Counted from the first letter of the stretch, positions 2,838-63,121 are shown. The stretch is 64,000 nt of DNA from Planctomyces sp. SH-PL62 (GCA_945905295.1 CAMDPX010000002.1:1-64000); one strand, 5' to 3'. The notes: generated by a model not told the origin, from the sequence alone. A program made the numbers and translations.

Positions 2838-2997
2838 ACTCGATAGCCCAGGGCGCAGCCCTGGGTGGCTGTAACACCACTCGGATTAAGCCCCAACGGG
2901 GCGCAACTGGCGTGACAACCCGGCCAGTGACGCCCCTTCAGGGCTAAAGATTTTCTTTCGTATGACAAACCCAGGGATCCGCCCTGGGCTATCGAGT
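2838..2997. repeat. Palindromic element A (arms ACTCGATAGCCCAGGGCG.A.CCCTGGGT, inverted)
   Basis: Left arm 2838-2866, right arm 2969-2997; each arm itself a CCCAGGG/CCCTGGG hairpin; right arm contains the TAG stop of the ABC ATPase gene. Confidence 0.85.
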
Positions 2998-3912
2998 CTC
3001 GACCCTTTGGGTCGGAAGACACGAAGCACTCGTCGATTTCAAAACTTCCACAAAAATGTCTTCGAGCGACGGTTGCCGAACTTCAAACTCGCTGAGCGTT
3101 CCCTCGTCACGCAATCCCACCAGTCGCGAATCCTCGCCGCCGCGCAGCAGCACGCGCCACTGCCGGTCGCGCTGATGCTGGCTGATGATCACGCCACCCA
3201 GATCGGGTAAAGCCGTCGATCCGTTGCCGAGCGTCAGCGTGATTTCACGCACCTCCGCTTTGAGTTTGTCGAGCCGCTCGACCAGCAGCAGTTCTCCTTG
3301 GCGAATGATCGCGATCACGTCGGCGATCCGTTCCACCTCGACGATCTGATGACTGGAGAGCAGCACCGTCCGACCGCGAGCGGCGACGTCCACCATGCTT
3401 TCGAGAAACTCGCGACGCACGACGGGATCGAGACCGGAAGTCGGTTCATCGAGCACGAGCAATTCCGGCTCGTGACCCATGCACAGCGCCAACGAGACCT
3501 TCGACCGCATCCCCTTTGAAAGCGTTTTGATCTTCTTGTCGATCGGCAAACCAAACTGACCGACGTAATCGCAGAACCGCTGATAGAAACCGTCGGCGTA
3601 AAAACCCGCCGCGAACCAGCCGATCTGTTCGACGGTCATCCACTCGTACAACGCCGGCCGATCGGGCACATAGCCGACTCGTTGCCGAATCGTCTGCCCG
3701 TGAGCCTGGCTGTCGAGGCCAAAGACGTGCGATGTCCCCATCGTCGGCTCCAGCAGGCCGAGCAGAATCCGAATCGCGGTCGTCTTGCCCGCGCCGTTGT
3801 CGCCGAGCAACGCCACGACCGAACCCGGCTCCGAGGACAACGTCAGCCGGCTCAGCGCGACTTGCTTGCCGAACCGCTTGGTGACCTGATCCCAACCAAA
3901 GACCACGCTCAT
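2989..3912 (-). CDS. ABC transporter ATP-binding protein
   Basis: Walker A LLGDNGAGKTT, signature LSKGMRSKVSLA, Walker B LLVLDEPTSGLD. Confidence 0.95.
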   Translation of the reverse strand: MSVVFGWDQVTKRFGKQVALSRLTLSSEPGSVVALLGDNGAGKTTAIRILLGLLEPTMGTSHVFGLDSQAHGQTIRQRVGYVPDRPALYEWMTVEQIGWFAAGFYADGFYQRFCDYVGQFGLPIDKKIKTLSKGMRSKVSLALCMGHEPELLVLDEPTSGLDPVVRREFLESMVDVAARGRTVLLSSHQIVEVERIADVIAIIRQGELLLVERLDKLKAEVREITLTLGNGSTALPDLGGVIISQHQRDRQWRVLLRGGEDSRLVGLRDEGTLSEFEVRQPSLEDIFVEVLKSTSASCLPTQRVETR

Positions 3913-4328
3913 GAGTCCGCTCCCTTCTTGCCTCGTTTGCCTTTCGCCGCCCGCTCCAGCCGAGTCAGTTCTTCCTCGACCAGCTCACGAATTTCGCTCG
4001 TCTCCAGCCGGCTGCTGTGAGCTTCCACCAGCACATGCCTGACCCGTTCGCGCAGCAGCCCCAGCCGTTCCTTCTCGCAATGCGCGACCGCGTCCTCGGT
4101 CACGTTCAAGCCGGTGCCGCGCACGGCTTCGAGGATTCCCTCATTCGTCAGGTCGCGATAGGCCCGCACGACCGTATTCGGATTCACGGCCAGTTCCTTC
4201 GCCAGCTCGCGCACCGAGGGGACCATGTCACCCGGCATCAGCGTGCCGCTGGCCACGGCGAACTTCACCTGCCGCACGATCTGGTCAAAGATCGCCAAGC
4301 CGTTCGTGGGATTGATCGAGAAAAACAT
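3909..4328 (-). CDS. GntR family (YtrA-like) transcriptional regulator
   Basis: IFDQIVRQVKFAVASGTLMPGDMVPSVRELAKELAVNPNTVVRAYRDLTNEGIL: GntR wHTH; overlaps ABC ATPase start. Confidence 0.93.
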   Translation of the reverse strand: MFFSINPTNGLAIFDQIVRQVKFAVASGTLMPGDMVPSVRELAKELAVNPNTVVRAYRDLTNEGILEAVRGTGLNVTEDAVAHCEKERLGLLRERVRHVLVEAHSSRLETSEIRELVEEELTRLERAAKGKRGKKGADS

Positions 4329-4395
4329 GGCCGCCGCCTCGAAGTGTTCTATCGTGATAGAACACTAAAACAAGTCGGGCGAATTGGCAAGCGAA

Positions 4396-4482
4396 GGGGT
4401 CGGGAGTCTTTTTCATGCCGCCGTCGAAAACAGTCCGGTTAGTTCCCTCGTGTTCGGCGGCATGAAAAAGACTCCCGACCCC
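4396..4482. repeat. Palindromic element, GGGGTCGGG family (copy 1)
   Basis: GGGGTCGGGAGTCTTTTTCATGCCGCCG ... CGGCGGCATGAAAAAGACTCCCGACCCC inverted arms; intergenic. Confidence 0.92.
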
Positions 4483-4491
4483 GTCTCTCGG

Positions 4492-6723
4492 CTACGTTGA
4501 CGCGCCCGCGCGTCGCTTCAACGCATCCGACGGAGCCAATCGCGGCCGGCCGTTCGACATCTTCTCCAATACTTCGACGATCTTGCCGAAGCCGATTGTT
4601 TCCGCGTACCGCATCGGTCCGCCGCGGAACGGCGCGAAGCCGGTGCCGAAGACCATCGCCAGGTCGATGTCTTCCGGCTTCGAGACGATCCCTTCATCCA
4701 AGCACCGCACGGCTTCGTTAATGAGCGGGAAGATCATTCGCTGAATCAGTTCCTCACGAGAGAGTGTGCTGATGGAATAACGAACCCCGGCGAGCCCCCG
4801 GACCTTCGCGATCGCTTTGTGAACGGCGGGATTCAATCGCTTCTTCGAGCCCTTGCCGATCAACAACGACTTCGCGGCCGAGGGTTCCGTGGCGGCGATC
4901 TCTTTCAAAGCGGCCCACAACGGAGCGGGCAACATGCGGTCGCCATACGCCGCGTACATGTTCGCGGCGACGTGCTGGCCGACTTCCAAACCGACGAGGT
5001 CCGTCAGTTCCAGCGGCCCCATCGGCATCCCAAACGCGACGGCTGCCCGGTCGATCTCTAACGGATCGACGACTTCCAGCAGCAGCCAGCCCGCCTCATT
5101 CATGTACGGCGAGAGGAGTCGATTGACCAAGAAGCCGGGGCAATCCTTCACGATCACTGCCGTCTTCCCCAGCCGTTGTGTGAGAGCAAACGCCGTCGCC
5201 AACGCCACGGGACTGGTTTCGTTGGTACGCACGATTTCGACCAGCGGCATTTGATGCGGCGGATTGAAGAAGTGCAGACCGACGATTCGCTCGGGATGCG
5301 GGATGCCTTGTGCGATGTCGCTGACCAACAGCGAACTGGTGTTCGTCGCCAGCACGGTCGTCGAGGAAGTCGCATCGGCCAGATCGCGAAAGACCTGCTG
5401 CTTGATCGGCAGGCTTTCGACGATCGCCTCGATGATGAGGTCGGCGTTCTTCAACCCGGCGTAATCGGTCGTCGGCCGTAAGCGGTCGAGCGTGTCGCTC
5501 GCCTGCAACGGTGTGATGCGTTTGCGTTGCAGATCGGACTTGATGAGTTTTCGTGCGGTCGCGATCCCCTTGGCGAGGAACTCCGGTTTGATGTCCTTCA
5601 GCCGAGTCCAAATCCCCTTCTGAGCCATGAGCAGCGCGATGCCGGCTCCCATTGCACCCGCGCCGAGCACTGCGGCATTGTGGGGCACGTTTCCAACGTG
5701 CCCGCCCTTGTCGCTGGACTCGGCGATCTCCGAGTCGGGCACGTTGGAAACGTGCCCCACGAACTTCTTCGCATCCTCTTGCAGGAAGAACAACCGCAGG
5801 CATTCGCGAGTGACCGGCGAATCGGCAAGACGCCCGATTGCTGCCGACTCCGCTGCGAAGCCGGTCGATGAAGACTGTCGAAATCCCGCGCGCAGGGCTT
5901 CGATGGCCGCGAGCGGAGCGGGGTAATGCCCCTTCGTTTCGTGCCGGACTTTTCCTTCGGCTTTATTGAACGCGAACTTTCGCAGTGGCGGAAACGCTTC
6001 GGTCAGCCGAGCCGCCAGCGGTCTCTTTGGCCGCTTGAAGATCGTGCTCGCCGTCCCGAACTTCATGACGGTTCGCAGCAATTGCTCACCGACGAAGGGA
6101 AGCGCCTCGACCGGCACCATGTCATGCACCAGCCCTTTCGACCGAGCTTGCCGGCCGCTGAGCATACGGCCGGTCAGGATCATCGGCAGAGCCTCCAACA
6201 ACCCGACCAATTTCGGCAACCGCACCGTTCCGCCCCAACCGGGAATCAATCCCAGCTTCACCTCCGGCAGACCGAGCAACGTCTTCGCGTGATCGTCCGC
6301 GATGCGATATCGGCACGACATCGCAAATTCGAGCCCACCGCCAAGGCAAGCTCCCGAGATCAACGCGACCGTCGGCACATGCAGCGCTTCGAGTTGCTCG
6401 AACACGCGCTGTCCGAGTTTGGAAAGCTCCACCGCTTCGGCTCCGCCGGTCATCGTCTTCATCTCGGTCACGTCCGCGCCAACGATGAAGTTTCCTTTCT
6501 TGCCGCTGAGGAACATCACGCCGCGTATCGCCGGGTTCCGTTTGATCTCAGAGATGAGCCGTTCGAGTTCTTCCAGCATCGCTTTCGAGAGTGCATTCGC
6601 CGACTTATCACAGCGGTCGATGCGGACTCGCAACAATCCACAGGCACCGAGTTCGGCGTGCCACATCGTGGCGTCCGGAAGCAGCGTGGAAGTGGCCGGC
6701 GATTCGAGTGTCGATGTTGTCAT
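4492..6723 (-). CDS. Bifunctional enoyl-CoA hydratase / 3-hydroxyacyl-CoA dehydrogenase (FadB/FadJ-like)
   Basis: Crotonase segment (GACLGGGLEFAMSCRYRIA, GWGGTVRLPKLVG) followed by NAD-binding AVLGAGAMGAGIA and HFFNPPHQMPLVEIV; likely start MTTSTLESP at 6723. Confidence 0.95.
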   Translation of the reverse strand: MTTSTLESPATSTLLPDATMWHAELGACGLLRVRIDRCDKSANALSKAMLEELERLISEIKRNPAIRGVMFLSGKKGNFIVGADVTEMKTMTGGAEAVELSKLGQRVFEQLEALHVPTVALISGACLGGGLEFAMSCRYRIADDHAKTLLGLPEVKLGLIPGWGGTVRLPKLVGLLEALPMILTGRMLSGRQARSKGLVHDMVPVEALPFVGEQLLRTVMKFGTASTIFKRPKRPLAARLTEAFPPLRKFAFNKAEGKVRHETKGHYPAPLAAIEALRAGFRQSSSTGFAAESAAIGRLADSPVTRECLRLFFLQEDAKKFVGHVSNVPDSEIAESSDKGGHVGNVPHNAAVLGAGAMGAGIALLMAQKGIWTRLKDIKPEFLAKGIATARKLIKSDLQRKRITPLQASDTLDRLRPTTDYAGLKNADLIIEAIVESLPIKQQVFRDLADATSSTTVLATNTSSLLVSDIAQGIPHPERIVGLHFFNPPHQMPLVEIVRTNETSPVALATAFALTQRLGKTAVIVKDCPGFLVNRLLSPYMNEAGWLLLEVVDPLEIDRAAVAFGMPMGPLELTDLVGLEVGQHVAANMYAAYGDRMLPAPLWAALKEIAATEPSAAKSLLIGKGSKKRLNPAVHKAIAKVRGLAGVRYSISTLSREELIQRMIFPLINEAVRCLDEGIVSKPEDIDLAMVFGTGFAPFRGGPMRYAETIGFGKIVEVLEKMSNGRPRLAPSDALKRRAGAST
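5680..5760. repeat. Palindromic element, GTGGGGCACGTTTCCAACGTGCCC family, inside fadB-like CDS
   Basis: Perfect 24-bp inverted arms 5680-5703 and 5737-5760; each arm is itself a hairpin (GGCACGTT-TCC-AACGTGCC). Confidence 0.95.
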
Positions 6724-6775
6724 GACGAAGACCTCATGGAGTTGTTGCAACCAATCAGGGGTCGGACTTGGACCG

Positions 6776-8071
6776 CTATGTTGTTTCGACAACCACCGCT
6801 CCGCCTTGTCCGCCGCCGATGCAGAGCGTGGCCAGTCCACGCGAAAGATTGCGGCGACGGAGTTCGTGCAGCAGCGTGAGGATCAAGCGTGTGCCGGTCG
6901 CTCCGACCGGATGGCCGAGTGCGATCGCTCCGCCGTTGACGTTGACTCGATCGAGATAGATCGAGCCGAGTGATTCGAGGTCAGATCCCTCGGTAGCACT
7001 CGCCCCAACCGGCGACTCGAACCTTCGCAGGCACGCGATGGCTTGGGCGGCGAACGCTTCGTTGAGTTCAATCAACTGCATGTCGCTCAGCTTGAGGCCG
7101 GTTTGCTGCAAGACGCGCGACGTGGCGAAGACCGGGCCAAGCCCCATCCGTGCCGGATCGCACCCGGCGTAGGCGTAATCGCGGATGCGGCCGAGCGGCG
7201 TCAGGCCCAGCTCGCGAGCGGTGTTCGCTTCGACGATCAACAGCGCGGCGGCTCCGTCGGTGATTTGGCACGAGTTGCCAATCGTCACGCTCCCCCACCG
7301 GCGGTCGAAGTACGGCTTCATCTTGGCCAGCGCTTCCTGCGACTGATCCGCCCGGAAGCCGACGTCTTGCGAGATTGGTTTGGAACCTCCCTCACGATCA
7401 TCGACATAGACGGTCATCACTTCCGACGCGAGGCGATTCTCTTTCCAGGCTGCGGCCGCAAGCTGATGACTGCGGAGTGCGAATTGGTCCTGCTCTTCGC
7501 GCGTGATGTGGAACTCGCGGGCCAGCTTCTCAGCCGTGTCACCCATGAGCAGACCGGTGACCGGGTCAGTCAGCCCCAACTTGATGCCGATTTGCGGAGT
7601 CAGATCACTGAGTCGAAACGACGCGAGCGTCTTCAACTTTTGCCACGCCGACTTCGCGGTGCTCAACCGCAGCAACTTGTCGGCGAAGTTCTTGGGATAG
7701 AAGAGCGGGATGTGGCTCATCGAATCGACGCCGACCGCGACGACGCATTTGGCTCGGCCAGAGACCACACGGTCGAAGGCTTGTGTGACGCATTCGAAGC
7801 CGCTGGCACAGTTGCGGTGGACGGTGTGAGCAATTTTCTCGCGCGGAATGCCGGCTCGTAGCGCAATGACTCGGCCGACGTTCGCGGCATCCACAGGACT
7901 GGCGACGTTGCCGCAGATCAGCTCGTCCACGTGAGCGGGATCGAGGTTCGCGCGGTCGAGCAGTTCTCTGACCGCGAGCCGTCCGAGTTCTTGCGCCGGA
8001 AGCTGATTGAAGGCGGCTCCGGCTTTCACGAACGGAGTCCGCACCCCTCCGACGATGACCGCTTCTGGCAT
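6776..8071 (-). CDS. Acetyl-CoA acyltransferase / thiolase (FadA-like)
   Basis: MPEAVIVGGVRTPFVKAGAAFNQLPAQELG..., NCASGFECVTQAFD, NVNGGAIALGHPVGATG, C-terminal LCIGGGQGGAVVVE; start set at 8071 (upstream ORF extension runs through a repeat). Confidence 0.95.
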   Translation of the reverse strand: MPEAVIVGGVRTPFVKAGAAFNQLPAQELGRLAVRELLDRANLDPAHVDELICGNVASPVDAANVGRVIALRAGIPREKIAHTVHRNCASGFECVTQAFDRVVSGRAKCVVAVGVDSMSHIPLFYPKNFADKLLRLSTAKSAWQKLKTLASFRLSDLTPQIGIKLGLTDPVTGLLMGDTAEKLAREFHITREEQDQFALRSHQLAAAAWKENRLASEVMTVYVDDREGGSKPISQDVGFRADQSQEALAKMKPYFDRRWGSVTIGNSCQITDGAAALLIVEANTARELGLTPLGRIRDYAYAGCDPARMGLGPVFATSRVLQQTGLKLSDMQLIELNEAFAAQAIACLRRFESPVGASATEGSDLESLGSIYLDRVNVNGGAIALGHPVGATGTRLILTLLHELRRRNLSRGLATLCIGGGQGGAVVVETT

Positions 8072-8089
8072 GATGCCCTCGCTGGCAAA

Positions 8090-8191
8090 GTAGGTCAGCC
8101 TTTCCAGGCTGACTGAAGCTCCTGAATGACGGGAGATTAGCTGCCAGCAGCGTCTAACGAAATTCGGGTCAGCCTGGAAAGGCTGACCTAC
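8090..8191. repeat. Palindromic element, GTAGGTCAGCCTTTCCAGGCTGAC family
   Basis: Perfect 24-bp inverted arms 8090-8113 and 8168-8191; right arm contains the TAG stop of the 8188-8736 gene. Confidence 0.95.
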
Positions 8192-10193: not shown

Positions 10194-10931
10194 ATGCGCT
10201 CTCAATCTGGCTCTTCGCTTTCGACGTTGGTGTTCTTGGTGCCGCTACTCGGCGTTCCGCTGATGGCGATCTTTGGCGTCCCGCAATTCGTGCCGGTGAT
10301 CGCGTCGTCGGCCAGCGACGATGCCGCACGATCATCGACCACACGCCGTTCACGAGGCGTGGGTGAGTCCGCGGCAGCAACGCCATTGGTCTCAGAGAAA
10401 TCGCCGCGCGATTCAACGTCACGCGATGACGAGCGAATCGACGATCTCTTTCGGCCCGCGAAATCAGCTCCGCGCGACAGCCGTCCGTTGCGGGGAGAAG
10501 CGTTGGGACGCGAGACGAAGTTTATCGAGACGTCGCAGGGCTCGGACACTTGGCTGACTCAGACCTCTGCCGAGGATCAAGCCGCTGAGATATTTTCGGA
10601 TCGGTCAAAAATGAAACAACCTGGCGAGCGGGGCGGCGTCAGCCCCCCGGTGAGTTCGCCAAGAACCGGGGGGCAGACGCCGCCCCGCTCGCCTGAGTCA
10701 TCGGACCAAGGGCTGACTTGGCGCGAGGCAGTGCGGCAATTGAACGAACTGGGCATCCAAGAGTTTCGTCTTGAGCCGGGCCGTCAGCTCGGTGAGTTCT
10801 ATTTCGCTTGCGAGTTCACTCCCGATCGCGACGCACGCATCACGCGCCGCTTTGAAGCCGAAGCCAAGGAACCGCTGCTGGCGGTCGCCGCCGTTCTGCG
10901 GCAAATCGACGAGTGGCTGCCGCGACGATGA
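10194..10931 (+). CDS. Hypothetical protein carrying an in-frame palindromic element
   Basis: ORF 10143-10931; likely start MRSQSGSSLS at 10194; contains PGERGGVSPPVSSPRTGGQTPPRSPE encoded by the repeat. Confidence 0.65.
   Translation: MRSQSGSSLSTLVFLVPLLGVPLMAIFGVPQFVPVIASSASDDAARSSTTRRSRGVGESAAATPLVSEKSPRDSTSRDDERIDDLFRPAKSAPRDSRPLRGEALGRETKFIETSQGSDTWLTQTSAEDQAAEIFSDRSKMKQPGERGGVSPPVSSPRTGGQTPPRSPESSDQGLTWREAVRQLNELGIQEFRLEPGRQLGEFYFACEFTPDRDARITRRFEAEAKEPLLAVAAVLRQIDEWLPRR
10623..10693. repeat. Palindromic element, GGCGAGCGGGGCGGCGTCAGCCCCCCGGT family (copy 1)
   Basis: 29-nt inverted arms 10623-10651 / 10665-10693 with one mismatch, inside CDS. Confidence 0.95.
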
Positions 10932-11676: not shown

Positions 11677-11790
11677 ATCCGCATCGCCAGAAGCTGTTTC
11701 AAAACTTGCCCGACGCGCAAAGCGAGGGAATGAAAACTTTTTTTGTCGCTGCGGCGTCAAGTTCTGGTAGATGTTGAACACGATTTGTTT

Positions 11791-11876
11791 CGCACACGGA
11801 TGCGAGGGGCACACACGGATGGCGGCGGTGCGAACGATTCTCTTTGATCCGTGTGCGCCTCTCGCATCCGTGTGCG
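11791..11876. repeat. Palindromic element, CGCACACGGATGCGAG family (copy 1)
   Basis: CGCACACGGATGCGAGGGGCACACACGGAT / ATCCGTGTGCGCCTCTCGCATCCGTGTGCG inverted; second copy at 58179. Confidence 0.92.
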
Positions 11877-11992
11877 AAGTCCGTGTGCAACACTTTCGAA
11901 TCCGCAATCCCAATCCAGAAGACACTGCCATCGAACTCGTGGTCTAAAGCAAAACCTCGTGAGTGATTCCATTTTGGAATCGCTTCCAACAC

Positions 11993-20681: not shown

Positions 20682-20786
20682 TTGTGGCCGGTCTCCTGAC
20701 CGAGCCACCTCGGTTGACCGAAGGTCTCCCAGTGCGCGTGAGACCTTCGGTCGCGGCCTGTGGCTCGGTCAGGAGACCGGCCACAA
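20682..20786. repeat. Compound palindromic element (TTGTGGCCGGTCTCCTGACCGAGCCAC arms, inner GACCGAAGGTCTC arms)
   Basis: Two nested inverted-repeat stems read directly between the histidine kinase and DUF1501 genes. Confidence 0.93.
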
Positions 20787-20804: not shown

Positions 20805-22250
20805 CTACGCCAATACCTCACGCACCACGCGCCCAGCCACGTCGGTCAATCGTTCGTTGCGGCCGTTGTGAAAATAAGTCAGTTGCTCGTGGTCAAAGCC
20901 GAGCAGATGCAGAATCGTCGCGTGCAAGTCATGCACATGAACCTTGTCCTCGACGGCTCGCAAACCCACGGCATCGGTCGCTCCGTAGGCCATACCGCCG
21001 CGCACGCCTGCTCCCGCCAGCCAGACCGTGTAGCCCCAGGGATTGTGATCGCGACCCTTGCCTTGTTCGCTCATCGGCATCCGTCCGAACTCGCCGCCCC
21101 AGATGACCAGCGTGTCGTCGAGCAACCCGCGCTGCCGCAGATCACGCAGCAAACCGGCGACCGGCTTGTCGGTCTTCCGGCACATGGTCGTGTGATTGCC
21201 GAGCACGTTCGTGTGAGCATCCCAGCCGTTCGTGTCGCCAGAATAAACCTGCACGAAGCGGACGCCCCGCTCGATCATCCGCCGAGCCAGCAAGCAGCGC
21301 GTACCGTATTCATCGGTGTCCGATTCGCCGATGCCATATTGCTTCAGAGTCGCCGCCGACTCGCTGCGCAGATCGACGACTTCGGGAGCCTCCGACTGCA
21401 TCCGAAACGCGAGTTCGTAAGCGTTCATCCGCGCGGCGAGTTGGTCATCGAAGTTGCGTTCCGCGAGATGCCGCTCATTCGCCCGCTGCACGAACGATAG
21501 CAGCCGGCGCTGACGCTCCTCGGTCACACCGGCCGGAGGCTGCAAGTACAACAGCGGACTCTTGCCCGGCCGCATCGTCGTCCCCTGAAACGTCGCCGGC
21601 AGATAACCGCTCCCCCAAGCCGGAGGTCCACCTTTCACTCCGCCACCCGGATCGGGCAACACGACAAACGCCGGTAAGTTTTGGTTCTCGGTCCCCAGCC
21701 CATAGGCGACCCACGAGCCGACGCTCGGCCGTCCCGTCAGAATGCTGCCGGTATTCATCTGATAAACCGACTGCGGATGATTCACGCTGTCGCCGTGACA
21801 CGACCGCAGCACGCACAACTCGTCCGCGCATTCACCGATGTGCGGCAAGAAATCGGAGACTTCCAATCCCGACTCGCCGCGCGGCCGAAACGGTTTGATC
21901 GCCGGCAGCAACGGATTCGCCGCGACCTTGCGCCGAGTCATCACCTCGCCAAAACTTTCGGGCAACGTCTGACCGGCCAGCTTGGTCAGTTCCGTTTTTG
22001 GATCAAATAGGTCCACATGACTAGGACCACCGTGCATAAAAAGCCAAATGACGCGCTTCGCTCGCGGCTCAAAGTGCGTGAGCTTTGGAGTCAGCGGATT
22101 CGCAGACGATTCGCCCGCCAACATCGACGCCAGCGCAATCGCTCCCAGTCCGCTCCCCGCGCGAGAGAAAAAGTCGCGCCGAGCCGAGCTTCGATCCACG
22201 TCCGGGGTAGGGTGTTCGGTTTTTCGGAATTGGCGGGAGGTAAGCGTCAT
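20805..22250 (-). CDS. DUF1501 domain-containing protein (sulfatase-like, Tat-exported)
   Basis: SSARRDFFSRAGSGLGAIALASMLAGE; VIWLFMHGGPSHVDLFDPK; LVIWGGEFGRMPMSEQGKGRDHNPWGYTVWLAGAGVRGG; VHDLHATILHLLGFDHEQLTYFHNGR. Confidence 0.95.
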   Translation of the reverse strand: MTLTSRQFRKTEHPTPDVDRSSARRDFFSRAGSGLGAIALASMLAGESSANPLTPKLTHFEPRAKRVIWLFMHGGPSHVDLFDPKTELTKLAGQTLPESFGEVMTRRKVAANPLLPAIKPFRPRGESGLEVSDFLPHIGECADELCVLRSCHGDSVNHPQSVYQMNTGSILTGRPSVGSWVAYGLGTENQNLPAFVVLPDPGGGVKGGPPAWGSGYLPATFQGTTMRPGKSPLLYLQPPAGVTEERQRRLLSFVQRANERHLAERNFDDQLAARMNAYELAFRMQSEAPEVVDLRSESAATLKQYGIGESDTDEYGTRCLLARRMIERGVRFVQVYSGDTNGWDAHTNVLGNHTTMCRKTDKPVAGLLRDLRQRGLLDDTLVIWGGEFGRMPMSEQGKGRDHNPWGYTVWLAGAGVRGGMAYGATDAVGLRAVEDKVHVHDLHATILHLLGFDHEQLTYFHNGRNERLTDVAGRVVREVLA

Positions 22251-22303
22251 TTGCAATCCAAGTCCTCCTCCCGCCAATTCCAAAAAACCGAACACCCGAC
22301 CCC
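22204..22303. repeat. Palindromic element, GGGGTCGGG family (copy 2)
   Basis: GGGGTAGGGTGTTCGGTTTTTCGGAATTGGCGGGAGG (22204-22240) vs CCTCCCGCCAATTCCAAAAAACCGAACACCCGACCCC (22267-22303); overlaps the 5' end of the DUF1501 CDS. Confidence 0.93.
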
Positions 22304-24700: not shown

Positions 24701-24898
24701 ATGAACAAGGCATTCGTTCGCGAACCTGACTCCGACGTGCGGCACTGCCCATTTTGCGGCTCGCTGGGGCAGGCGGTCGGGCGAGTCACACTCGATGCGT
24801 GGCTGAAGCCAAGGGGTGGCACAGCTTGCTTCAAGCTGTGTGCGCAGCATCGGAAACCCTGGAGAAGACACTCAATAATCGTTGGACGTCATTCTTGA
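24701..24898 (+). pseudogene. Truncated duplicate of the downstream CopZ-domain-like gene, interrupted by a palindromic element
   Basis: MNKAFVREPDSDVRHCPFCGSLGQAVGRVTLDAWLKP then repeat-encoded RGGTACFKLC...; compare MNKAFVRESESDVRHCPFCASLGQAVERITLDAWLKPESRGQIG at 24996. Confidence 0.8.
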
Positions 24899-24960
24899 AA
24901 CCGCGCCAACTCTCAGTTTCCAATGCCTTCGGCACACAGCTTGAAGCAAGCTGTGCCACC
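24815..24960. repeat. Palindromic element, GGTGGCACAGCTTGCTTCAAGCTGTGTGC family
   Basis: 29-bp inverted arms 24815-24843 / 24932-24960; arm is itself a hairpin (ACAGCTTG-CTT-CAAGCTGT). Confidence 0.95.
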
Positions 24961-24995
24961 CAATGCCTCTGAGTTTCTCTGATGAATGGCTGGCG

Positions 24996-25439
24996 ATGAA
25001 CAAGGCTTTCGTTCGCGAATCGGAATCTGATGTGCGGCACTGCCCATTTTGCGCCTCGCTGGGGCAGGCGGTCGAGCGGATCACGCTCGATGCGTGGCTG
25101 AAGCCGGAGTCTCGCGGGCAAATTGGTGAGACCGCGATGTTCTGCATCCAACCGGAATGCGAAGTCGCTTACTTCGACTCGTTCGAGCGGGTCGTGACGA
25201 TCGACAAGCTGACTCGGCCGGCGTATCCCAAGTCGGCGGACGCGCCGATCTGCGGTTGCTTCGGGCTGATGTGCGGCGAAATCGAAGAAGATGTCGCCGA
25301 AGAGAGCGTCGCTCGCACACGCGCGGCGGTCGCACGAGCCAAGACGCCGGAGGCTCGCTGCTCGGTGATGTCGGCCAACGGGCAGCCGTGCGTGGCGGAG
25401 ATTCAGCGGTACTATTTCAAATGCAAAGGCGGGATGTAG
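24996..25439 (+). CDS. CopZ N-terminal-domain-like (Zn/2Fe-2S cysteine cluster) protein
   Basis: CPFCASLGQAVERITLDAWLKPESRGQIGETAMFCIQPECEVAYFDSFERVVTIDKL...ICGCFGLMCGEI: cysteine pattern as in CopZ-type domains; ORF open from 24963. Confidence 0.65.
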   Translation: MNKAFVRESESDVRHCPFCASLGQAVERITLDAWLKPESRGQIGETAMFCIQPECEVAYFDSFERVVTIDKLTRPAYPKSADAPICGCFGLMCGEIEEDVAEESVARTRAAVARAKTPEARCSVMSANGQPCVAEIQRYYFKCKGGM

Positions 25440-25488
25440 GTTGGGACTCCGTCCCGACCAATCGGGTCGGGACGGAGTCCCAACCTAC
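25436..25488. repeat. Palindromic element, GTAGGTTGGGACTCCGTCCCGACC family
   Basis: Perfect 24-bp inverted arms 25436-25459 / 25465-25488; left arm contains the TAG stop (25437-25439) of the preceding gene. Confidence 0.95.
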
Positions 25489-43080: not shown

Positions 43081-45393
43081 ATGCTGGCATGGCTCGCCGC
43101 GCTGCTCGCCGCTCGCTGGCTGATCCCGACCGAGGGAGCAGTCGAGGGGCTGACGTTGTGGTTGGTGCAATTGGTTCTGCTGACGGCGGTGGCTCGGATG
43201 GTTTGGGCCTGGCGATTTGACGAGCGGCCGTTTCGGTTCGATGCGATGGATGGCGCGATCGCGTTGTTGATTGTGGCTCAAGTGGTCTCCGCGCTGGCGG
43301 TGGTGTGGGGGGGTGGCAACTCGCGTGCGGCGATCAATCTCGCGTGGGAATGGGTTGGCTCCGGCGTGTTGATTTGGTTGTTGCGTCAAGAATTGAGAGC
43401 GACTCGCGCGGTACTGCCACTCTGTCTGGGTTTGTCGCTGACGGCGGGTGTGCTGGCGGGATATGGGTTGTGGCAGCATTACGTCTGGTACGACGAGATG
43501 AGCCGCGATTACGACCGGCTCACGACGGAGCATGATCGGCTGAGTCAGTCTCCGTCCGATGGACGACGCTTGCAGTCTTTGCGAGCCGAGATGTCTCGGC
43601 AGGGGATTCCCGTCGAACCGGCCGCTCGGCAGTCGCTGGAGCAACGGTTGAAAGCGAGTCGTGAACCGTTCGGACTGTTCGCACTGGCGAACACGTTCGC
43701 GGGATTGTTGGGGGTGATGTTGCTGATCGTCGCCGGGACAATCCCGGCCGGCACGAAACCTTGGGATTGGATCGCGGCTGCGCTCGTGGCGCTCGTCATC
43801 GGCTATTGCCTGGTGCTGACGAAGAGCCGCACGGCTTGGGTTGGATTGCTCGCGGGGATCGGTTGGTGGGTGTTCCGAGTCGTGGCCGCTCGCTGGCGAC
43901 GTGGCGACTCACCGACGCAGCAGCGATCAGCGTTCGTCCGATGGATCGCCGGTGGCGCGGTCGTCGTGGGAATCGCGGTAACGATTGCGGTCGTCAGCGG
44001 AGGCTTGGACAAGGCGGTGTTGTCGGAGGCTCCGAAGTCGGTGCGATATCGGCTGGAGTATTGGCAAGGAGCATGGGCCACCATCCGTGAGCACATCTGG
44101 TTTGGCACGGGGCCAGGCAACTTTCGGGATTACTACACGGCTCACAAACTGCCGGAGTCGAGCGAGGAGATTGCCGATCCGCACAATTTGATTTTCGACG
44201 TGTGGGCCAACGCGGGAACGTTCGGGTTGATCGGCTTGCTGGCGTGTCTTGGGCTGATGCTGCGCGAAGTTTTCAAACGGCGCGACGGGGTCGGGAGTCT
44301 TTTTCAGAGCGGCGGAACCTCTCACGACCAGCCACGGGGGATCGACTGCCGCTCTGAAAAAGACTCCCGACCCCTTTTGTCGGCCGGCGCGTGGGGCGTC
44401 GGCTTGGCGTTTCCGCTGAGCGCGGTCGGCATGGAGTTGATGGGGCACGGGACTGATGAGCGGTTGTGGTGGCTCGGTGGGATTTGGTGGGTGTTGTGGC
44501 TGGTCGGCGTCTTGGTTGCGAAGCGATCAGCGTCCAAGCAATTCTCGGAATCTGGTTGCTCCCGAACGGTCGCAGTCCGCTGGTCTCTGGAGGGGGCGAA
44601 CGTCGTGTTGCTGGTGCATTTGTTGGGAGCGGGCGGGATCGCGATGCCGGCGATCACGCAGTTGTTGTGGCTGGTGTGGGCGCTGCGAGTCGCGTGTGCG
44701 GAGTCGTCGGCGATCGCGCGAGATGAAAAATCGCCCAGCGAGTCGGCGAGCAGAGGCGTAAAGGCCGGACGTCTTCCGGTGGGAGTGTCCGCGTTGGCCG
44801 CCGGAGGACTGTTTGTTTTGTGTTGGTGGACGGCGACCATGCCGGAGTTATTGGGCCGCACGTCACTGCAAATAGGGGATGCCGAGTGGGGACGCGGTCA
44901 ATTCGCAGCAGCGAGCAAACGATATCTCGATGCGAGCGGTGCCGATCCGTATGCGATCGAGCCGCTCGAACGATTGGCCGAAGCCGCATTTCAACGCTGG
45001 CAAGCCACGCATGCCGAGCACGATTTCGAGGAGTCGGTGCAACGCCGGCAAGTGGTCATCACCCGGTTGCCGTTCGCCTCACGGTCGTTTCGACGATTGG
45101 GGCAAGTCTGGATGGCTCGATTCGAACACTCACGCGAAGTGCCAGACGCGACGCACGCCGTCGAGGCGTACTCGGCCGCGGTCGAGCGTTATCCCCATCA
45201 TGCGGAACTGCTCTCGGAGTCGGCGACCGCCAGCGAGCAGGCGGGATTGATCGAGCACGCTCGCGAAACGGCGCGGCGAGCGATTCGGCAAGACGATCTC
45301 AATCGGCGCGCGGGGCACTCGGACAAGTTCCTCGACGACAAGACGCGGCGGCGAATGGAACGTCTCGCGGCCGAACCGTCGGAACCGAATTGA
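43081..45393 (+). CDS. O-antigen ligase/polymerase (Wzy/WaaL-like) family membrane protein with C-terminal TPR-like region
   Basis: Many TM helices; LTKSRTAWVGLLAG, FGTGPGNFRDYYTAHKLPESSEEIADPHNLIFDVWANAGTFGLIG; ORF open from 42994, start 43081 preferred. Confidence 0.88.
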   Translation: MLAWLAALLAARWLIPTEGAVEGLTLWLVQLVLLTAVARMVWAWRFDERPFRFDAMDGAIALLIVAQVVSALAVVWGGGNSRAAINLAWEWVGSGVLIWLLRQELRATRAVLPLCLGLSLTAGVLAGYGLWQHYVWYDEMSRDYDRLTTEHDRLSQSPSDGRRLQSLRAEMSRQGIPVEPAARQSLEQRLKASREPFGLFALANTFAGLLGVMLLIVAGTIPAGTKPWDWIAAALVALVIGYCLVLTKSRTAWVGLLAGIGWWVFRVVAARWRRGDSPTQQRSAFVRWIAGGAVVVGIAVTIAVVSGGLDKAVLSEAPKSVRYRLEYWQGAWATIREHIWFGTGPGNFRDYYTAHKLPESSEEIADPHNLIFDVWANAGTFGLIGLLACLGLMLREVFKRRDGVGSLFQSGGTSHDQPRGIDCRSEKDSRPLLSAGAWGVGLAFPLSAVGMELMGHGTDERLWWLGGIWWVLWLVGVLVAKRSASKQFSESGCSRTVAVRWSLEGANVVLLVHLLGAGGIAMPAITQLLWLVWALRVACAESSAIARDEKSPSESASRGVKAGRLPVGVSALAAGGLFVLCWWTATMPELLGRTSLQIGDAEWGRGQFAAASKRYLDASGADPYAIEPLERLAEAAFQRWQATHAEHDFEESVQRRQVVITRLPFASRSFRRLGQVWMARFEHSREVPDATHAVEAYSAAVERYPHHAELLSESATASEQAGLIEHARETARRAIRQDDLNRRAGHSDKFLDDKTRRRMERLAAEPSEPN
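44287..44374. repeat. Palindromic element, GGGGTCGGG family (copy 4), inside O-antigen ligase CDS
   Basis: Perfect 27-bp arms GGGGTCGGGAGTCTTTTTCAGAGCGGC (44287-44313) / GCCGCTCTGAAAAAGACTCCCGACCCC (44348-44374). Confidence 0.95.
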
Positions 45394-45491
45394 CCGGTTT
45401 TGGCGCGGCCATCACAATGCCGCGCCGGTGGATTGGCCGTTAGTTTGATTTTGTTTTTTCTCAGTGAGTTGTACCGAACGCGGGGGACATT

Positions 45492-45605
45492 GGCACAAAC
45501 CCCACCGAGCTTACCTCGGTGGTTTTTGGGCTTTTGCACTACGTTTTTCAGACACGTAGTGCAAAGGCCCGTTTCCACCGAGGCAAGCTCGGTGGGGTTT
45601 GTGCC
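45492..45605. repeat. Palindromic element, CCCCACCGAGCTT.CCTCGGTGG family (copy 1)
   Basis: GGCACAAACCCCACCGAGCTTACCTCGGTGG...GGGCTTTTGCACTACGT / ACGTAGTGCAAAGGCCCG...CCACCGAGGCAAGCTCGGTGGGGTTTGTGCC. Confidence 0.95.
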
Positions 45606-45682
45606 ATCCGCACCCTTGCGAGGAATATGAAATTTGTGGCAGGTTGGGTAGGTTGAAAACTGCCGCACCCAATGGAGGCTTC

Positions 45683-55670: not shown

Positions 55671-55792
55671 ACCGGTCACTCCGAGGCTGTGAAAGAATTG
55701 ATAGCTGAACTCGCCAGAGTTCAGTTTTCTCGGCGAATTCCGAAGTCTGGCGACTTCAGCTACCCAAACCTTCACAGGCTCTCCGTGACCGG
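55671..55792. repeat. Diverged palindromic element with AACTCGCCAGAGTT-type hairpins
   Basis: CCGGTCACTCCGAGGCTGTGAA...AGCTGAACTCGCCAGAGTTCAG / CGAAGTCTGGCGACTTCAGCT...TTCACAGGCTCTCCGTGACCGG imperfect inversion. Confidence 0.75.
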
Positions 55793-55818
55793 AACGTTCA
55801 AGTCACGGAGTGACTCGT

Positions 55819-57182: not shown

Positions 57183-57248
57183 GCCCGACGAATCGAAGGA
57201 GACGACGAATGAGGACCGGCATTCGTCGTCTCCTTCGATTCGTCGGGC
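57183..57248. repeat. Palindromic element, GCCCGACGAATCGAAGGAGACGACGAATG family
   Basis: Perfect 29-bp arms 57183-57211 / 57220-57248. Confidence 0.95.
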
Positions 57249-57258
57249 TCCCCTCAAC

Positions 57259-58098: not shown

Positions 58099-58178
58099 GA
58101 GTACGCCTCCCGGGATTCGAGTTTCGATCACAAACTTCGCGCGATCAGTGTATTGGGCCGGCACGGCGAATTCCCATG

Positions 58179-58262
58179 CGCACACGGATGCGAGCGGCGC
58201 ACACGGATGGAAGCGGCCTCATTACTGTCTTCATCCGTGTGCGCCTCTCGCATCCGTGTGCG
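58179..58262. repeat. Palindromic element, CGCACACGGATGCGAG family (copy 2)
   Basis: CGCACACGGATGCGAGCGGCGCACACGGAT / ATCCGTGTGCGCCTCTCGCATCCGTGTGCG. Confidence 0.93.
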
Positions 58263-58346
58263 AAGCCATCTTCTATTTCGAGACCAAAGACAACCCCGCG
58301 TTAGTCATTGCCAACTCACCAGCAACCGTTTGAAATCCCCGCCATC

Positions 58347-61300
58347 ATGAAACAGCACTCCTTCTCAACCGTCGCGGCATTGCTCTTCGCAACGTCGCTC
58401 ATCGCCCCCGCGATCACCAAGGCTCAAGCCCCCGACCCCAAAGGGATCGAGTTCTTCGAGCAAAAGATCCGCCCGGTATTGGCACAGCATTGCTACTCGT
58501 GCCATTCGGACGAGGCTCGCGCCGCCAAAAAGCTGAAGGCGAAACTGTACCTCGATTCGGCCGAAGGACTGCTGGACGGTGGCGAGAGTGGCTCGGTCAT
58601 CGTCAAAGGCAAAGGGGCCGACAGTCTGCTGGTCAAAGCGCTGAAGTACGACGGATTGGAGATGCCGCCAACCGGAAAGCTGTCGGACGAAATCATCGCC
58701 GACTTCACGAAGTGGATCGACATGGGAGCTCCCGATCCGCGTGAAGGTCGCAAGCCGGGAGCGGCCAAGCGAGTGATCAACCTCGAAGAAGGCCGCCAGT
58801 TCTGGTCGTTCCAGCCATTGAAAAGCATCACCCCACCGGACGTGAAGAACGCCGACTGGAACCGAACGGCCATCGACCGATTCGTCGCGGCGAAGCACGA
58901 AGAGAAAGCTCTGCGTCCCAATGGACCCGTCAGCAAAGAAAAACTGATCCGTCGCGCGTATTTCGATCTCATTGGTCTGCCACCCACTCCGGAACAGATC
59001 GCGGCGTTCGTGCAGGACGCCTCGCCAAATGCCTTCGAGAAAGTCGTCGACGAACTGCTGCAATCCGAACGCTACGGCGAGCGTTGGGGCCGGCATTGGC
59101 TGGACGTCGCGCGGTTTGCCGAGAGCGGCGGTTATGAGTTCGACGGTTTCCGCCCCGGCGCGTATCACTACCGCGACTGGGTCATCCGCGCGATCAATGG
59201 CGACATGCCCTTCACCGAGTTCGTGCGGATGCAGATCGCCGGCGACAAGCTCTTGCCGGATGACTATCGCGGAGCGGCCGCCACCGGTTTCCTGGTCGCC
59301 GGACCGTATCCCGGCCAGATCACCGCGAAGACCGTCGAGCGGATTCGCTACGACCAGCTCGACGACATGATCATGACGATCGGCGGTTCGATGCTCGGCC
59401 TGACGCTCGGCTGCGTCCGTTGCCACGAGCACAAGTACGATCCGATTCCGGCGCAGGATTATTACGGCGTCGCATCCTCGCTGGCGCGAACGGCGCACGG
59501 TTCAAAAACGTATGACCCCGATCCGGCGGCGACTCAACGAGCGGTCGAAAAGCACCGCGCGGATGGCGAGCCGCTCAATGCGGCTCTCAAGAAGTTCGCA
59601 TCAGAAGAACTGCCGAAACGATTTGCCGAATGGCAGAAGACGGAACTCGCCAAGCAACCGGAGACACCGCGCTGGCAAGTGCTCGAACCGGTGACGGTCG
59701 AAGCCGAACGATCCTGGTTGAAGATGCTCCCCAACGGGATCGTGGCCCACGACGGAACGTTCGCGATCGAATCCAACGCTCGCCGCCGTCCCCGCGCCGC
59801 GCGTGCGGCCGAGGAATACACCGTTACGACGCACACGTTTCAGAAGAACCTCACGTCGTTGCGGTTCGATGCCTTCACCGAGAAGTCGCTTCCGAAGCGC
59901 GGCCCCGGAGTCAGCGGCGACGGCAGCTTTGAATTGCTGGAGATAAAGGTCACAGCCCGCCCACTCGATCGCGCGAACCTTTCGGCGAGCCAGAGGGCGT
60001 TAGCCCCTGGACAGAGCGATCAAGCGGAATCGTCCGGGGGCTTACGCCCTCCGGCTCGCCAAGATTCTGACAAGCCGATTGAACTGAAACTCAAACCGGT
60101 CTTTGCCGCATTCGAAGATAAGGACCAGCCGCTGGCCAACGTCTTCGATGGCAAACCCGCAACCGCCTGGGTCGTGCGAGCCAATGCCGGCAAAGACAAC
60201 GCGGCGATCTTCGAGATTGAAGGAGGACTTCCGGGCTTTGCGAGCGGCACCGAACTGACTTTCGAGTTGAACTTTCGCGATCTCGGAATCGGCCGCGTCC
60301 GGTTCGCGATGAGCACGGAAGCGAACCCAGCCACCTGGGCGGGCGACGTCGCTCCGCAGCATCTCGCGGAGATCCGTGCGACGTTGGCCGCCAACAACAA
60401 TCTGATTCCTGAAGCCGCTCGCGAGCCGCTCGCCCGCTGGTTCAGCCCCTTCGATCTTGAGACCGCGAAGGTCTTCAATACGGTGCGCGATCACGTGAAC
60501 CGCGAACCGCGACCGTCGCTGACGGAGGTCTACACCACGATTCCTGGTGGGCAGGATGTCTTCCTGCTGCGGCGCGGTGAGGTCGACAACAAGCAGGGCA
60601 AGGCCGAACCGAGCTTTCTCCAAGTCGTCGCGACCGCCGCCGACAAAGAAGCTCGCTGGTTACCGAAGCCAGCGGCTGGCCAACCAGCAATCGACCCGCG
60701 CATCGGATTGGCGAATTGGATGACCGATGCCGAATTTGGAGCGGGTGCGCTGCTGGCTCGCGTAATGGCCAATCGGCTGTGGCAGCATCATTTCGGCGAG
60801 GGGATCGTCGGCACCTCGAACGACTTCGGAGCACAGGGCGAGCGGCCCACGCATCCGGAACTTCTCGAATGGCTCGCCGCCGAATTCGTCAAAGGAGGCT
60901 GGAAGCTCAAGCCGTTGCACAAAGCGATGATGCTCACGGCGGTCTATCAGCAATCCAACGACGTCTCGCCGGACAACCTGAAGATCGACTCGCAGAACCG
61001 ATACCTGTGGTATCACAAGCCTCGTCGCCTGGAAGCCGAAATCATTCGCGATGCGCTGCTGGCCGTCGGTGGCTCGCTCGACACGACGATGTACGGCCCC
61101 AGTCTGCTCGACAACACGCCGCGACGCAGCGTCTACCTGCGCGTGAAACGCAGCGAACTGATTCCGTTCATGACGATGTTCGACGCCCCCGAACCAACGC
61201 AAAGCATCGGCGAACGGATCAGCACGACGCTGCCGACGCAGGCATTGACGATGATGAACTCACCGTTCGTCCGCCAGCAGGCCGAGAAACTGGTCGCCCG

Positions 61301-61502
61301 CATTCGCCCCACTGCCGACGTCCCCCTCGAAACCGCCGTTGATCGAGCCTACCAATTTGCGTTCGCACGGTTGCCCTCGAAAGAAGAACGCGACCGGATG
61401 CTCGCCTTCATCACTCAACAGACCGATGCCAACCCCAACATCACCCTGACCGAATTCTGCCAAGTCTTATTCTGTCTCAACGAGTTCGTTTACGTGGACT
61501 AG
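58347..61502 (+). CDS. PSCyt1/DUF1549/DUF1553 domain-containing protein (planctomycete cytochrome C type)
   Basis: IRPVLAQHCYSCHSDEARAAKKLKAKLYLDSAEGLLDGGESG; LIRRAYFDLIGLPPTPEQIAAFV; RYGERWGRHWLDVARFAESGGYEFD; ARVMANRLWQHHFGEGIVGTSNDFGAQGERPTHPELLEWLA. Confidence 0.96.
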   Translation: MKQHSFSTVAALLFATSLIAPAITKAQAPDPKGIEFFEQKIRPVLAQHCYSCHSDEARAAKKLKAKLYLDSAEGLLDGGESGSVIVKGKGADSLLVKALKYDGLEMPPTGKLSDEIIADFTKWIDMGAPDPREGRKPGAAKRVINLEEGRQFWSFQPLKSITPPDVKNADWNRTAIDRFVAAKHEEKALRPNGPVSKEKLIRRAYFDLIGLPPTPEQIAAFVQDASPNAFEKVVDELLQSERYGERWGRHWLDVARFAESGGYEFDGFRPGAYHYRDWVIRAINGDMPFTEFVRMQIAGDKLLPDDYRGAAATGFLVAGPYPGQITAKTVERIRYDQLDDMIMTIGGSMLGLTLGCVRCHEHKYDPIPAQDYYGVASSLARTAHGSKTYDPDPAATQRAVEKHRADGEPLNAALKKFASEELPKRFAEWQKTELAKQPETPRWQVLEPVTVEAERSWLKMLPNGIVAHDGTFAIESNARRRPRAARAAEEYTVTTHTFQKNLTSLRFDAFTEKSLPKRGPGVSGDGSFELLEIKVTARPLDRANLSASQRALAPGQSDQAESSGGLRPPARQDSDKPIELKLKPVFAAFEDKDQPLANVFDGKPATAWVVRANAGKDNAAIFEIEGGLPGFASGTELTFELNFRDLGIGRVRFAMSTEANPATWAGDVAPQHLAEIRATLAANNNLIPEAAREPLARWFSPFDLETAKVFNTVRDHVNREPRPSLTEVYTTIPGGQDVFLLRRGEVDNKQGKAEPSFLQVVATAADKEARWLPKPAAGQPAIDPRIGLANWMTDAEFGAGALLARVMANRLWQHHFGEGIVGTSNDFGAQGERPTHPELLEWLAAEFVKGGWKLKPLHKAMMLTAVYQQSNDVSPDNLKIDSQNRYLWYHKPRRLEAEIIRDALLAVGGSLDTTMYGPSLLDNTPRRSVYLRVKRSELIPFMTMFDAPEPTQSIGERISTTLPTQALTMMNSPFVRQQAEKLVARIRPTADVPLETAVDRAYQFAFARLPSKEERDRMLAFITQQTDANPNITLTEFCQVLFCLNEFVYVD
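59984..60060. repeat. Palindromic element (GGCGAGCC.GAGGGCGT.AGCCCC), inside DUF1549/DUF1553 CDS
   Basis: GGCGAGCCAGAGGGCGTTAGCCCCTGG / CCGGGGGCTTACGCCCTCCGGCTCGCC inverted arms, few mismatches. Confidence 0.9.
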
Positions 61503-61558
61503 AAGAAGGATGGCAAAATCATGGTTCACAAGATCATGTCTTTATGATTCTGTGATCC

Positions 61559-62992
61559 ATGAATTTGCCAAAAACAAACATGATTCAACTCCCCTCACGC
61601 CGCCGCTTCCTCCAAGACAGCGGCCTCGGATTCGGTTCCCTGGCACTCGCGTCTCTTCTCAACCAAGAGACAAACGCGAATCCACTGGCTCAGAAGCAAC
61701 CGCAGTTCGCGGCGAAGGCCAAGTCCGTCATTTGGCTCTTCATGACCGGTGGTCCTTCGCAAGTCGACACCTGGGATTACAAACCGGAACTGCAAAAGCG
61801 GGACGGCCAAGATCTTGCCGGAGCCGATCCGAAGACCGGCTTCTTCACGACCAGCGGCAAGTGCCTGAAGTCGCCGTTCGAGTGGCGGCAGCACGGCGAG
61901 TCAGCCACCTGGGTTCCGGACATCTTTCCGCACCTGTCGCAACACGTCGATGAGATGACCTTCATCCACTCGATGTATCTGCGGCAGAACAATCACGCTC
62001 CGGCGGCCATCGAATTGATGTGCGGCACCAACCGACCCGGCCTGCCAGCGATGGGAGCCTGGATGACTTACGGACTCGGTGCCGAGAACCAGGATCTCCC
62101 TGCCTACGTCGTGCTGCATGACACTCGGCCGCGCGGCGACGACCAGATCTGGTCGGCTGGTTTCTTGCCGAAGACGTATCAGGCGCTGACGCTCGACGCC
62201 CGCCGCAAAGAGGCGATCGACAACCTCGCCCGCGACGGCAAACACAGCGACGCGCAACAGCGAGCACAACTCGAATTGATTCGCACGTTGAACCAGGAGC
62301 ACGCCGCGACTCGCGCGACGCAAGCCGACCTCGCCGCGCGGATCAACTCCTACGAACTGGCCTATCGCATGCAGATGGCCGCTCCTGAAGCGCTCGACAT
62401 CGCGAAAGAGTCCGAAGCGACTCACAAGCAATACGGCATGGACCAACCCGAATGCGCCACGTTCGCGCGGCAATGTTTGATCGCTCGGCGATTGGTGGAG
62501 CGAGGCGTTCGCTTCGTGCAGATCTTCGCCGGCAAAGGGGTCGGCGGTGACGGCAGCGTCAACGATGTGCCGTGGGATTGCCATTCCGACTTGCAGACGA
62601 ATCACCGCTCGAACGGCCTGCACACCGATCAGCCGGCCGCCGCGTTGCTGGCCGATCTCAAGACGCGCGGCTTGCTGGAAGACACGCTGGTCATCTGGGG
62701 CGGCGAGTTCGGCCGCACGTCAGATTCGCAAGGAGCCAAGGGCCGAGACCACAACCCGAACGGCTTCACCATCTGGATGGCCGGCGGCGGCGTGAAGCGC
62801 GGTCTGCATTACGGAGCGACCGATCCGTTCGGCTACAAAGCGGTCGAGAAGAAGGTCCACGTCAACGATCTCCACGCCACGCTGCTGCACCTGATGGGGC
62901 TCAACCACGAGGAACTGACCTATCGCTTCAACGGCCGAGATTTCCGACTGACCGACGTTGCCGGAAGCGTGATCAACGAGATTCTCGCGTAA
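61559..62992 (+). CDS. DUF1501 domain-containing protein
   Basis: SRRRFLQDSGLGFGSLALASLLNQ Tat-like; VIWLFMTGGPSQVDTWDYKPEL; GGEFGRTSDSQGAKGRDHNPNGFTIWMAGGGVKRG. Confidence 0.96.
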   Translation: MNLPKTNMIQLPSRRRFLQDSGLGFGSLALASLLNQETNANPLAQKQPQFAAKAKSVIWLFMTGGPSQVDTWDYKPELQKRDGQDLAGADPKTGFFTTSGKCLKSPFEWRQHGESATWVPDIFPHLSQHVDEMTFIHSMYLRQNNHAPAAIELMCGTNRPGLPAMGAWMTYGLGAENQDLPAYVVLHDTRPRGDDQIWSAGFLPKTYQALTLDARRKEAIDNLARDGKHSDAQQRAQLELIRTLNQEHAATRATQADLAARINSYELAYRMQMAAPEALDIAKESEATHKQYGMDQPECATFARQCLIARRLVERGVRFVQIFAGKGVGGDGSVNDVPWDCHSDLQTNHRSNGLHTDQPAAALLADLKTRGLLEDTLVIWGGEFGRTSDSQGAKGRDHNPNGFTIWMAGGGVKRGLHYGATDPFGYKAVEKKVHVNDLHATLLHLMGLNHEELTYRFNGRDFRLTDVAGSVINEILA

Positions 62993-63007
62993 TTCGCAAC
63001 GAAGAAA

Positions 63008-63121
63008 CCCCACTGAGCTTGCCTCAGTGGTTCACGGGCTTCTGCACTACGCACGCGAGTGTTCGCCGTGATTCGGACGTAGTGCAAAAGCCCGCAAGCC
63101 ACTGAGGCAAGCTCAGTGGGG
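63008..63121. repeat. Palindromic element, CCCCACYGAGCTT.CCTC.GTGG family (copy 2)
   Basis: CCCCACTGAGCTTGCCTCAGTGG...GGGCTTCTGCACTACG / CGTAGTGCAAAAGCCCG...CCACTGAGGCAAGCTCAGTGGGG. Confidence 0.95.

Follow-up and report, generated by a model that had tools for sequence, protein, structure and literature searches.

Which genes are responsible for the palindromic elements scattered along a 64,000-nucleotide stretch of the genome of Planctomyces sp. SH-PL62 (GCA_945905295.1 CAMDPX010000002.1:1-64000; the whole stretch is called the window below)? The initial annotation proposed a single element group mobilised in trans. Mobilisation in trans fits most of the families, but more than one group is present and one of the partners, a PD-(D/E)XK protein, was unforeseen; on balance, the palindromes are probably non-autonomous elements that depend on partner genes located elsewhere, which belong to two unrelated machineries, Y1 transposases and GxxExxY proteins.

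A strict inverted-repeat scan (score of at least 18) revealed 19 inverted repeats in the window (3.0 per 10 kb), and 216 in an 864-kb sample of the genome (2.5 per 10 kb), whereas a first-order Markov control of 344 kb contained none; the palindromes of the window occur far above chance expectation. Their arms are 24–44 nt long and perfect in many cases. The repeat listing and direct reading located inverted repeats at essentially all of the annotated coordinates, and the list of about 20 elements holds for nearly all of them, with the qualifications that the element at 55671 is a nested double palindrome and that the one at 59984 lies below the strict threshold. The annotated minimum of six families was too low, since clustering of the arms gave 57 clusters, about 20 of them with three or more copies. 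Four broad kinds can be distinguished by the arms: hairpin pairs tagged with GTAG/GTGG, hairpins of the form GGCGAGC..GTYAGCC, GGGGTC[AG]GG arms that lack a hairpin, and direct-repeat arms; the description of arms as mini-hairpins applies to the first two kinds and not to the last two. The statement that many elements lie inside genes was an overstatement: according to a codon-usage gene call, 13 of 21 window elements are intergenic and most of the remaining ones merely touch gene ends, although three are indeed in frame within conserved genes (5680, 44287, 59984) and one lies at a C-terminus (42886).

GxxExxY genes beside direct-repeat palindromes

The direct-repeat class comprises four of the 21 window elements (11789, 14731, 57183 and 58179), the arms of which consist of direct iterons and have no hairpin, GT[AG]G foot or GGGGWSAS motif. 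Copy numbers are based on 1.26 Mb of sampled stretches of the 8.6-Mb source genome (assembly 97% complete). The ATCCGTGTG..ATCCGTGTG direct repeat is represented by 113 half-sites genome-wide and CGACGAAT..CGACGAAT by 247, the reversed-pattern control being 0 for both; some of the sampled stretches were picked for holding direct-repeat elements, and therefore these genome-wide half-site counts are given for the two families in place of an extrapolation from the sample. Inspection of three ATCCGTGTG elements clustered on contig C20 revealed a GxxExxY gene situated exactly between two of them. A PF13366 search of the source genome gave 12 matches, including seven intact GxxExxY genes, and all seven adjoin a palindrome, nearly all with an iteron of their own; the ATCCGTGTG and CGACGAAT families each stand on both sides of their own gene. 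The genes, named by contig, and their iterons are as follows:

C20, ATCCGTGTG
C174, CGACGAAT
C15, CTCTGCG
C267, AAATCATG (one side)
C449, GGCAGAAAAATG
C82, TCAAGAA (one side)
C31, ACTAATC

This association of genes with elements, largely one iteron per gene, is strong and was observed directly. Twelve inverted repeats are found within 300 bp of the seven genes (2.86 per kb) versus two in the 12.9 kb beyond (0.155 per kb), and direct-repeat arms make up 9 of the 12 near arms versus 3 of 19 at the 13 Y1 transposase loci of the genome; none of these 13 Y1 genes is flanked by the direct-repeat families of the window. At 36 unique GxxExxY loci in other genomes of the class, the density is 0.74 per kb near the gene versus 0.047 per kb far from it, direct repeats make up 13 of the 16 near arms, and a strict inverted repeat is present at 13 of the loci. 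The association is seen again in other Planctomycetota, Verrucomicrobiota, Bacteroidota and Gemmatimonadota. A contig search with the single-domain protein P0007, the gene of which accounts for three of the five ACTAATC tandem sites in the source genome, found orthologues with CACTAATC repeats in the flanking elements in many Planctomycetota and also in metagenome-assembled genomes of Verrucomicrobiota (L214, L215), and iterons with a period of 9–10 accompany the GxxExxY genes of Bernardetia (Bacteroidota) and Gemmatirosa (Gemmatimonadota); the flanks in Treponema and Persicobacter are suggestive only. Among 60 proteins, the more similar two proteins are, the more 8-mers their flanks share, at identities below 80% (Mantel r 0.43, 0/2000), a correlation to which shared ancestry may contribute.

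Six GxxExxY proteins of the source genome are about 265 residues long; three of them contain two Pfam PDDEXK_3 domains and the other three contain one, their C-terminal half still aligning to the two-domain proteins, and the second half of these long proteins is devoid of the PD-(D/E)XK residues. All 43 homologues compared have E93 and K95, and P82-D83 is almost invariant. Foldseek searches with an AlphaFold model of GxxExxY (pLDDT 87) placed lambda exonuclease (E 5e-4) and Cas4 SSO0001 (1e-3) on top, with TM-scores of about 0.5; because these scores are modest, only the general PD-(D/E)XK nuclease fold is assigned to the modelled protein. A Holliday-junction resolvase fold was considered but not supported (T7 endonuclease I profile, E 1.3; resolvase ranked 32nd, E 0.23). 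The open-licence papers on GxxExxY or IVP proteins contained no link to such repeats, and none was found on PDDEXK_3; the direct-repeat class with its GxxExxY partner appears to be undescribed, the other elements being of known kinds.

Y1 transposase genes and turnover of the elements

The source genome contains 13 Y1_Tnp (PF01797) genes. The Y1 genes flanked by the same arms that the initial annotation had suggested looking for do exist for several families: complete elements of window families stand on both sides of L007 (family of 4396 and 44287), L008 (40349), L009 (22204), L011 and L012 (25436) and L013 (45491 and 63008), and additional copies of the families were found in the sampled genome, as anticipated. 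Direct reading showed that each arm of the repetitive extragenic palindromic (REP) pairs at 25436, 8090, 5680, 20682 and 55671 carries GTAG or GTGG at its outer end; in the group of 4396, 22204, 40349 and 44287, the arm motif is GGGGTCGG in most copies and GGGGTCAG in some. In the sister genome G150, which is about 90% identical, an unbiased scan for genes between same-family palindromes revealed a class-3 Y1 gene between elements of the GGCGAGC superfamily; its product, P0008, has the NHVH and YILEAQ signature and matches PF01797 (E 1e-6). The source genome has a partial copy of this gene on contig C374, with GGCGAGCC elements upstream. As for the 5' CnGA foot, CTGA was seen in L307, and the arms of the GGCGAGC family in the window start with GGCGAGC, the foot not being clearly present. 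Most window families fit descriptions already published, namely those of REP/REPIN, TIRYT-like or class-3 TnpA_Y1 elements. Two GTGGGGCACG elements of the 5680 family enclose an open reading frame of roughly 275 codons (L027, 18953–19953); it has no PF01797 match and is either a possible partner or a chance occurrence. The window elements are listed below by position.

2838..2997, TAGCCC-type palindrome; resembles the repeat beside Y1 gene L001 (resemblance only); partner not found
4396..4482, GGGGTCGGGAGTC element; family of Y1 gene L007; other families at this site in sister species
5680..5760, GTGG-tagged REP pair; in frame within an ECH/3HCDH gene; partner not found
8090..8191, GTAG-tagged REP pair; common to G150 and G151; partner not found
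10623..10693, GGCGAGC hairpin pair; class-3 Y1 gene superfamily
11789..11878, direct-repeat palindrome, iteron ATCCGTGTG; partner is the GxxExxY gene at C20
14731..14804, direct-repeat palindrome, iteron GGCAAAAAAATG; similar, not identical, to the iteron of GxxExxY gene L141; in G151, not in G150
20682..20786, GTGG-tagged REP pair; missing in G150, GGGGTC element at the G151 site; partner not found
22204..22303, GGGGTCGGGTGTTCGG element; family of Y1 gene L009
23336..23414, GGCGAGC hairpin pair; class-3 Y1 gene superfamily
24814..24961, GTGGCACAGCTTGC palindrome; partner not found
25436..25488, GTAGGTTGGGACTCC REP pair; family of Y1 genes L011 and L012
40349..40448, GGGGTCGGGTCTACG element; family of Y1 gene L008
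42886..42957, GGCGAGC hairpin pair; C-terminus of a glycosyltransferase gene
44287..44374, GGGGTCGGGAGTC element; within a Wzy_C gene; family of Y1 gene L007; also in G150 and G151
45491..45606, GAGCTTGCCTCGG palindrome; family of Y1 gene L013; missing in G150 and G151
55671..55818, GTAGCTGAA unit, outer ends AGGCTGTGAA; lies within an older palindrome that is unbroken in G150; partner not found
57183..57248, direct-repeat palindrome, iteron CGACGAAT; partner is the GxxExxY gene at C174; missing in G150
58179..58262, direct-repeat palindrome, iteron ATCCGTGTG; partner is the GxxExxY gene at C20; in G150
59984..60070, GGCGAGC hairpin pair; within a PSCyt1/PSD1 gene; missing in G150
63008..63121, GAGCTTGCCTCAG palindrome; family of Y1 gene L013

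Presence and absence of the elements between sister species was also observed directly. Among 35 source-genome elements with both flanks recovered in G150, 11 are the same there, 10 sites are empty, nine hold another palindrome family and five another sequence; the reciprocal comparison of 29 G150 elements gave 11, 3, 10 and 5, respectively. The expected empty orthologous sites, or sites occupied by another family, thus occur (24 of 35 differ in G150). The terminal overlaps of clean insertions measure 9 bp at L018:19767, which lies inside another REP, 5 bp at L019:1206 and 11 bp at G150 L311:18752, and the direct-repeat elements are polymorphic too: 14731 is shared by the source genome and G151 and absent from G150, and L131:5915 is missing in G150. 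The proposal that perfect arms mark recent insertion fails for 8090 and 44287, which are common to G150 and have 100% identical arms despite flanks of 88–92% identity; over the shared elements (n=8), identity is 0.96 in arms, 0.90 in flanks and 0.86 in spacers. Palindromes of other families stand at the same orthologous sites in sister species at 4396, 20682, 22204, 23336, 24814 and 25436, the 4396 site carrying three different families in three sister species; such sharing of sites may be partly due to chance, because the elements cluster in the short spaces between genes. Units whose outer ends resemble AGCCTGTGAA..TTCACAGGCT lie within hairpins of other REPs and show overlaps of 5–9 bp at their termini (L019 1190–1286, L018 19754–19846, window 55671–55818).

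Inside genes, element 44287 adds 29 residues to the Wzy_C ligase in three species, G149 having a different palindrome at that spot, and 59984 adds about 27 residues to the PSCyt1/PSD1 protein in the source genome only. Element 5680 lies in a linker of the ECH/3HCDH protein, and its spacer, EIAESSDK, is similar to the native linker EIADIASK; the REP arms at 5680–5760 look as if they bracketed pre-existing coding DNA. The idea that the spacer is always host DNA was ruled out, since clean insertions bring their own spacer, 5680 being an exception.

Proposed mechanism, alternatives and the IVP parallel

Under the two-machinery explanation, the GTAG/GTGG REP pairs and the GGGGTC, GAGCTTGCC and GGCGAGC elements would be served by Y1 HUH (IS200-like) transposases of the RAYT and TIRYT types and of class-3 TnpA_Y1, which would act by cleaving single-stranded hairpins and inserting the element at another site. 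Each GxxExxY protein, with a single domain or a tandem double domain, would recognise its own iteron by means of a protomer pair or the fused double domain and would cut at the iteron or at similar native sites, whereupon repair may copy the iteron palindrome into new places. Several points weigh against this explanation. Movement was not observed; recognition, cleavage and the causation of mobility are inferred for both machineries, the nuclease activity and DNA recognition of GxxExxY being putative, and the C-terminal domain of P0001, the protein paired with ATCCGTGTG, is degenerate. For several GTAG/GTGG families (5680, 8090, 20682, 24814 and 55671) and for 2838, the analysis located no partner gene. 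No strict inverted repeat was detected at 23 of the 36 loci with a GxxExxY gene in other genomes, the elements beside L137 and L139 are one-sided, and the nearest partner of 14731 has a related, non-identical iteron. Given the 13 known Y1 genes and the completeness of the assembly, an undetected Y1 gene could serve the direct-repeat families.

The last point leads to the proposal that Y1 proteins move all families, including the direct-repeat ones, with GxxExxY genes being cargo or hitchhikers that insert near palindromes. Y1 genes are indeed numerous and both types of partner coexist in one genome; nevertheless, this proposal appears improbable, since GxxExxY genes stand between same-family copies of their own iteron while no Y1 gene is so flanked, neither the hairpin nor the foot of Y1 substrates is present in the direct-repeat arms, and the association is seen across genomes. 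The iteron arrays might instead be regulatory or partition-like binding sites of GxxExxY (and IVP) proteins, spread by selection or local duplication, and the protein might be a regulator or an addiction or defence module. The constant position of the gene beside its sites and the local arrays of copies at some loci (L194, L196) speak for this, but the dozens of dispersed copies, their presence and absence between sisters and the conservation of the PD-(D/E)XK residues make it unlikely. It is very hard to maintain that the palindromes are ancient, immobile local structures under selection, such as terminators, RNA-processing or chromosome-structuring sites: most elements are intergenic and the arms of shared elements are better conserved than their flanks and spacers, and the explanation may hold for old elements such as 8090, but the differences from the sister genome, the clean insertions with short terminal overlaps and the absence of some in-frame insertions from relatives contradict it, as do the empty sites for most elements.

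The preferred explanation, in which GxxExxY proteins serve the direct-repeat families, has a parallel in IVP/S23 genes. One IVP (PF05635) gene of the source genome lies beside an iteron palindrome, and therefore 30 IVP loci of other planctomycete genomes were tested. Tandem repeats were found in 36 of 60 flanks, with period 7 in 30, versus 4 of 59 in the control; 10-mers common to the left and right flanks are inverted at 22 of 29 loci, direct at three and found at two in the control (10-mers were used, as 7-mer sharing saturates). On cyanobacterial plasmids, IVP genes lie between inverted heptamer arrays in Nostoc edaphicum, Anabaena 90, Calothrix brevissima and Nostoc C052; Nostoc 53789 has an array on one side only, Pseudanabaena has direct, not inverted, arrays, and the IVP flanks of Calothrix PCC 7716 and Picosynechococcus have weak or no period-7 arrays. 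The heptamer in the inverted 7-bp arrays (L341–L370; L371, L373, L374, L377) is different at most genes. IVP genes were also noticed between cas6 and cas4 on two plasmids and within a type III-B Cmr operon (L373 1480–1848; L375 1480–1836; L376 1486–1845), the neighbours being apparently undisrupted.

A tentative generalisation, for which the chances seem somewhat below even, is that GxxExxY and IVP/S23 four-helix-bundle genes represent a cross-phylum class of mobile DNA, in which a small gene or a short spacer lies between inverted iteron arrays. The iteron period would go with the protein family (7 bp for IVP, 9–10 for single and about 15–19 for tandem GxxExxY), the iteron sequence would be gene-specific, and the class would be a source of long-known orphan tandem repeats such as the cyanobacterial short tandemly repeated repetitive (STRR) sequences and TAACTGA arrays. 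The direct-repeat class ties GxxExxY, a widespread uncharacterised nuclease-fold family, to a specific repeat architecture, each gene–iteron pair is a ready test case for protein–DNA specificity, and the IVP parallel opens the origin of the cyanobacterial heptamers to direct testing.

Comparison with known systems

The STRR heptamers of cyanobacteria and the TAACTGA arrays of Beggiatoaceae, described without a link to IVP or GxxExxY (PMC4679880), resemble the IVP arrays, and not the window elements, in their tandem 7-bp units, the comparison being one of period. Rickettsia palindromic elements and intragenic REPs (PMC3733652) share with 5680, 44287 and 59984 the presence of in-frame palindromes in protein genes; this is a likeness of arrangement, whereas the families in the window go with Y1 genes, with GxxExxY genes or with neither.

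The Y1 families are a very rich further example of known REP biology. The 25436 family is similar to REP/REPIN elements and REPtrons with RAYT (PMC3116915, PMC3733652, PMC6006769) in its inverted pairs of short palindromes, many copies and flanked single Y1 gene. The GGGGTC arms around L007–L009 and their dimeric copies resemble TIRYT/TIRtrons with the GGGGWSAS motif (PMC3733652), although the arms in the window, GGGGTCGG, are one base off and some copies (GGGGTCAGG) match. The class-3 TnpA_Y1 of Planctomycetes, Acidobacteria and Proteobacteria (PMC6006769) has the same NHVH and Y...Q signature and atypical high-copy flanking structures, but the source-genome gene is partial and the intact gene was read only in G150. 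The direct-repeat class differs from REP/REPIN systems in having no Y1 partner, arm hairpin or GT[AG]G foot, and its partner is a protein of the PD-(D/E)XK type.

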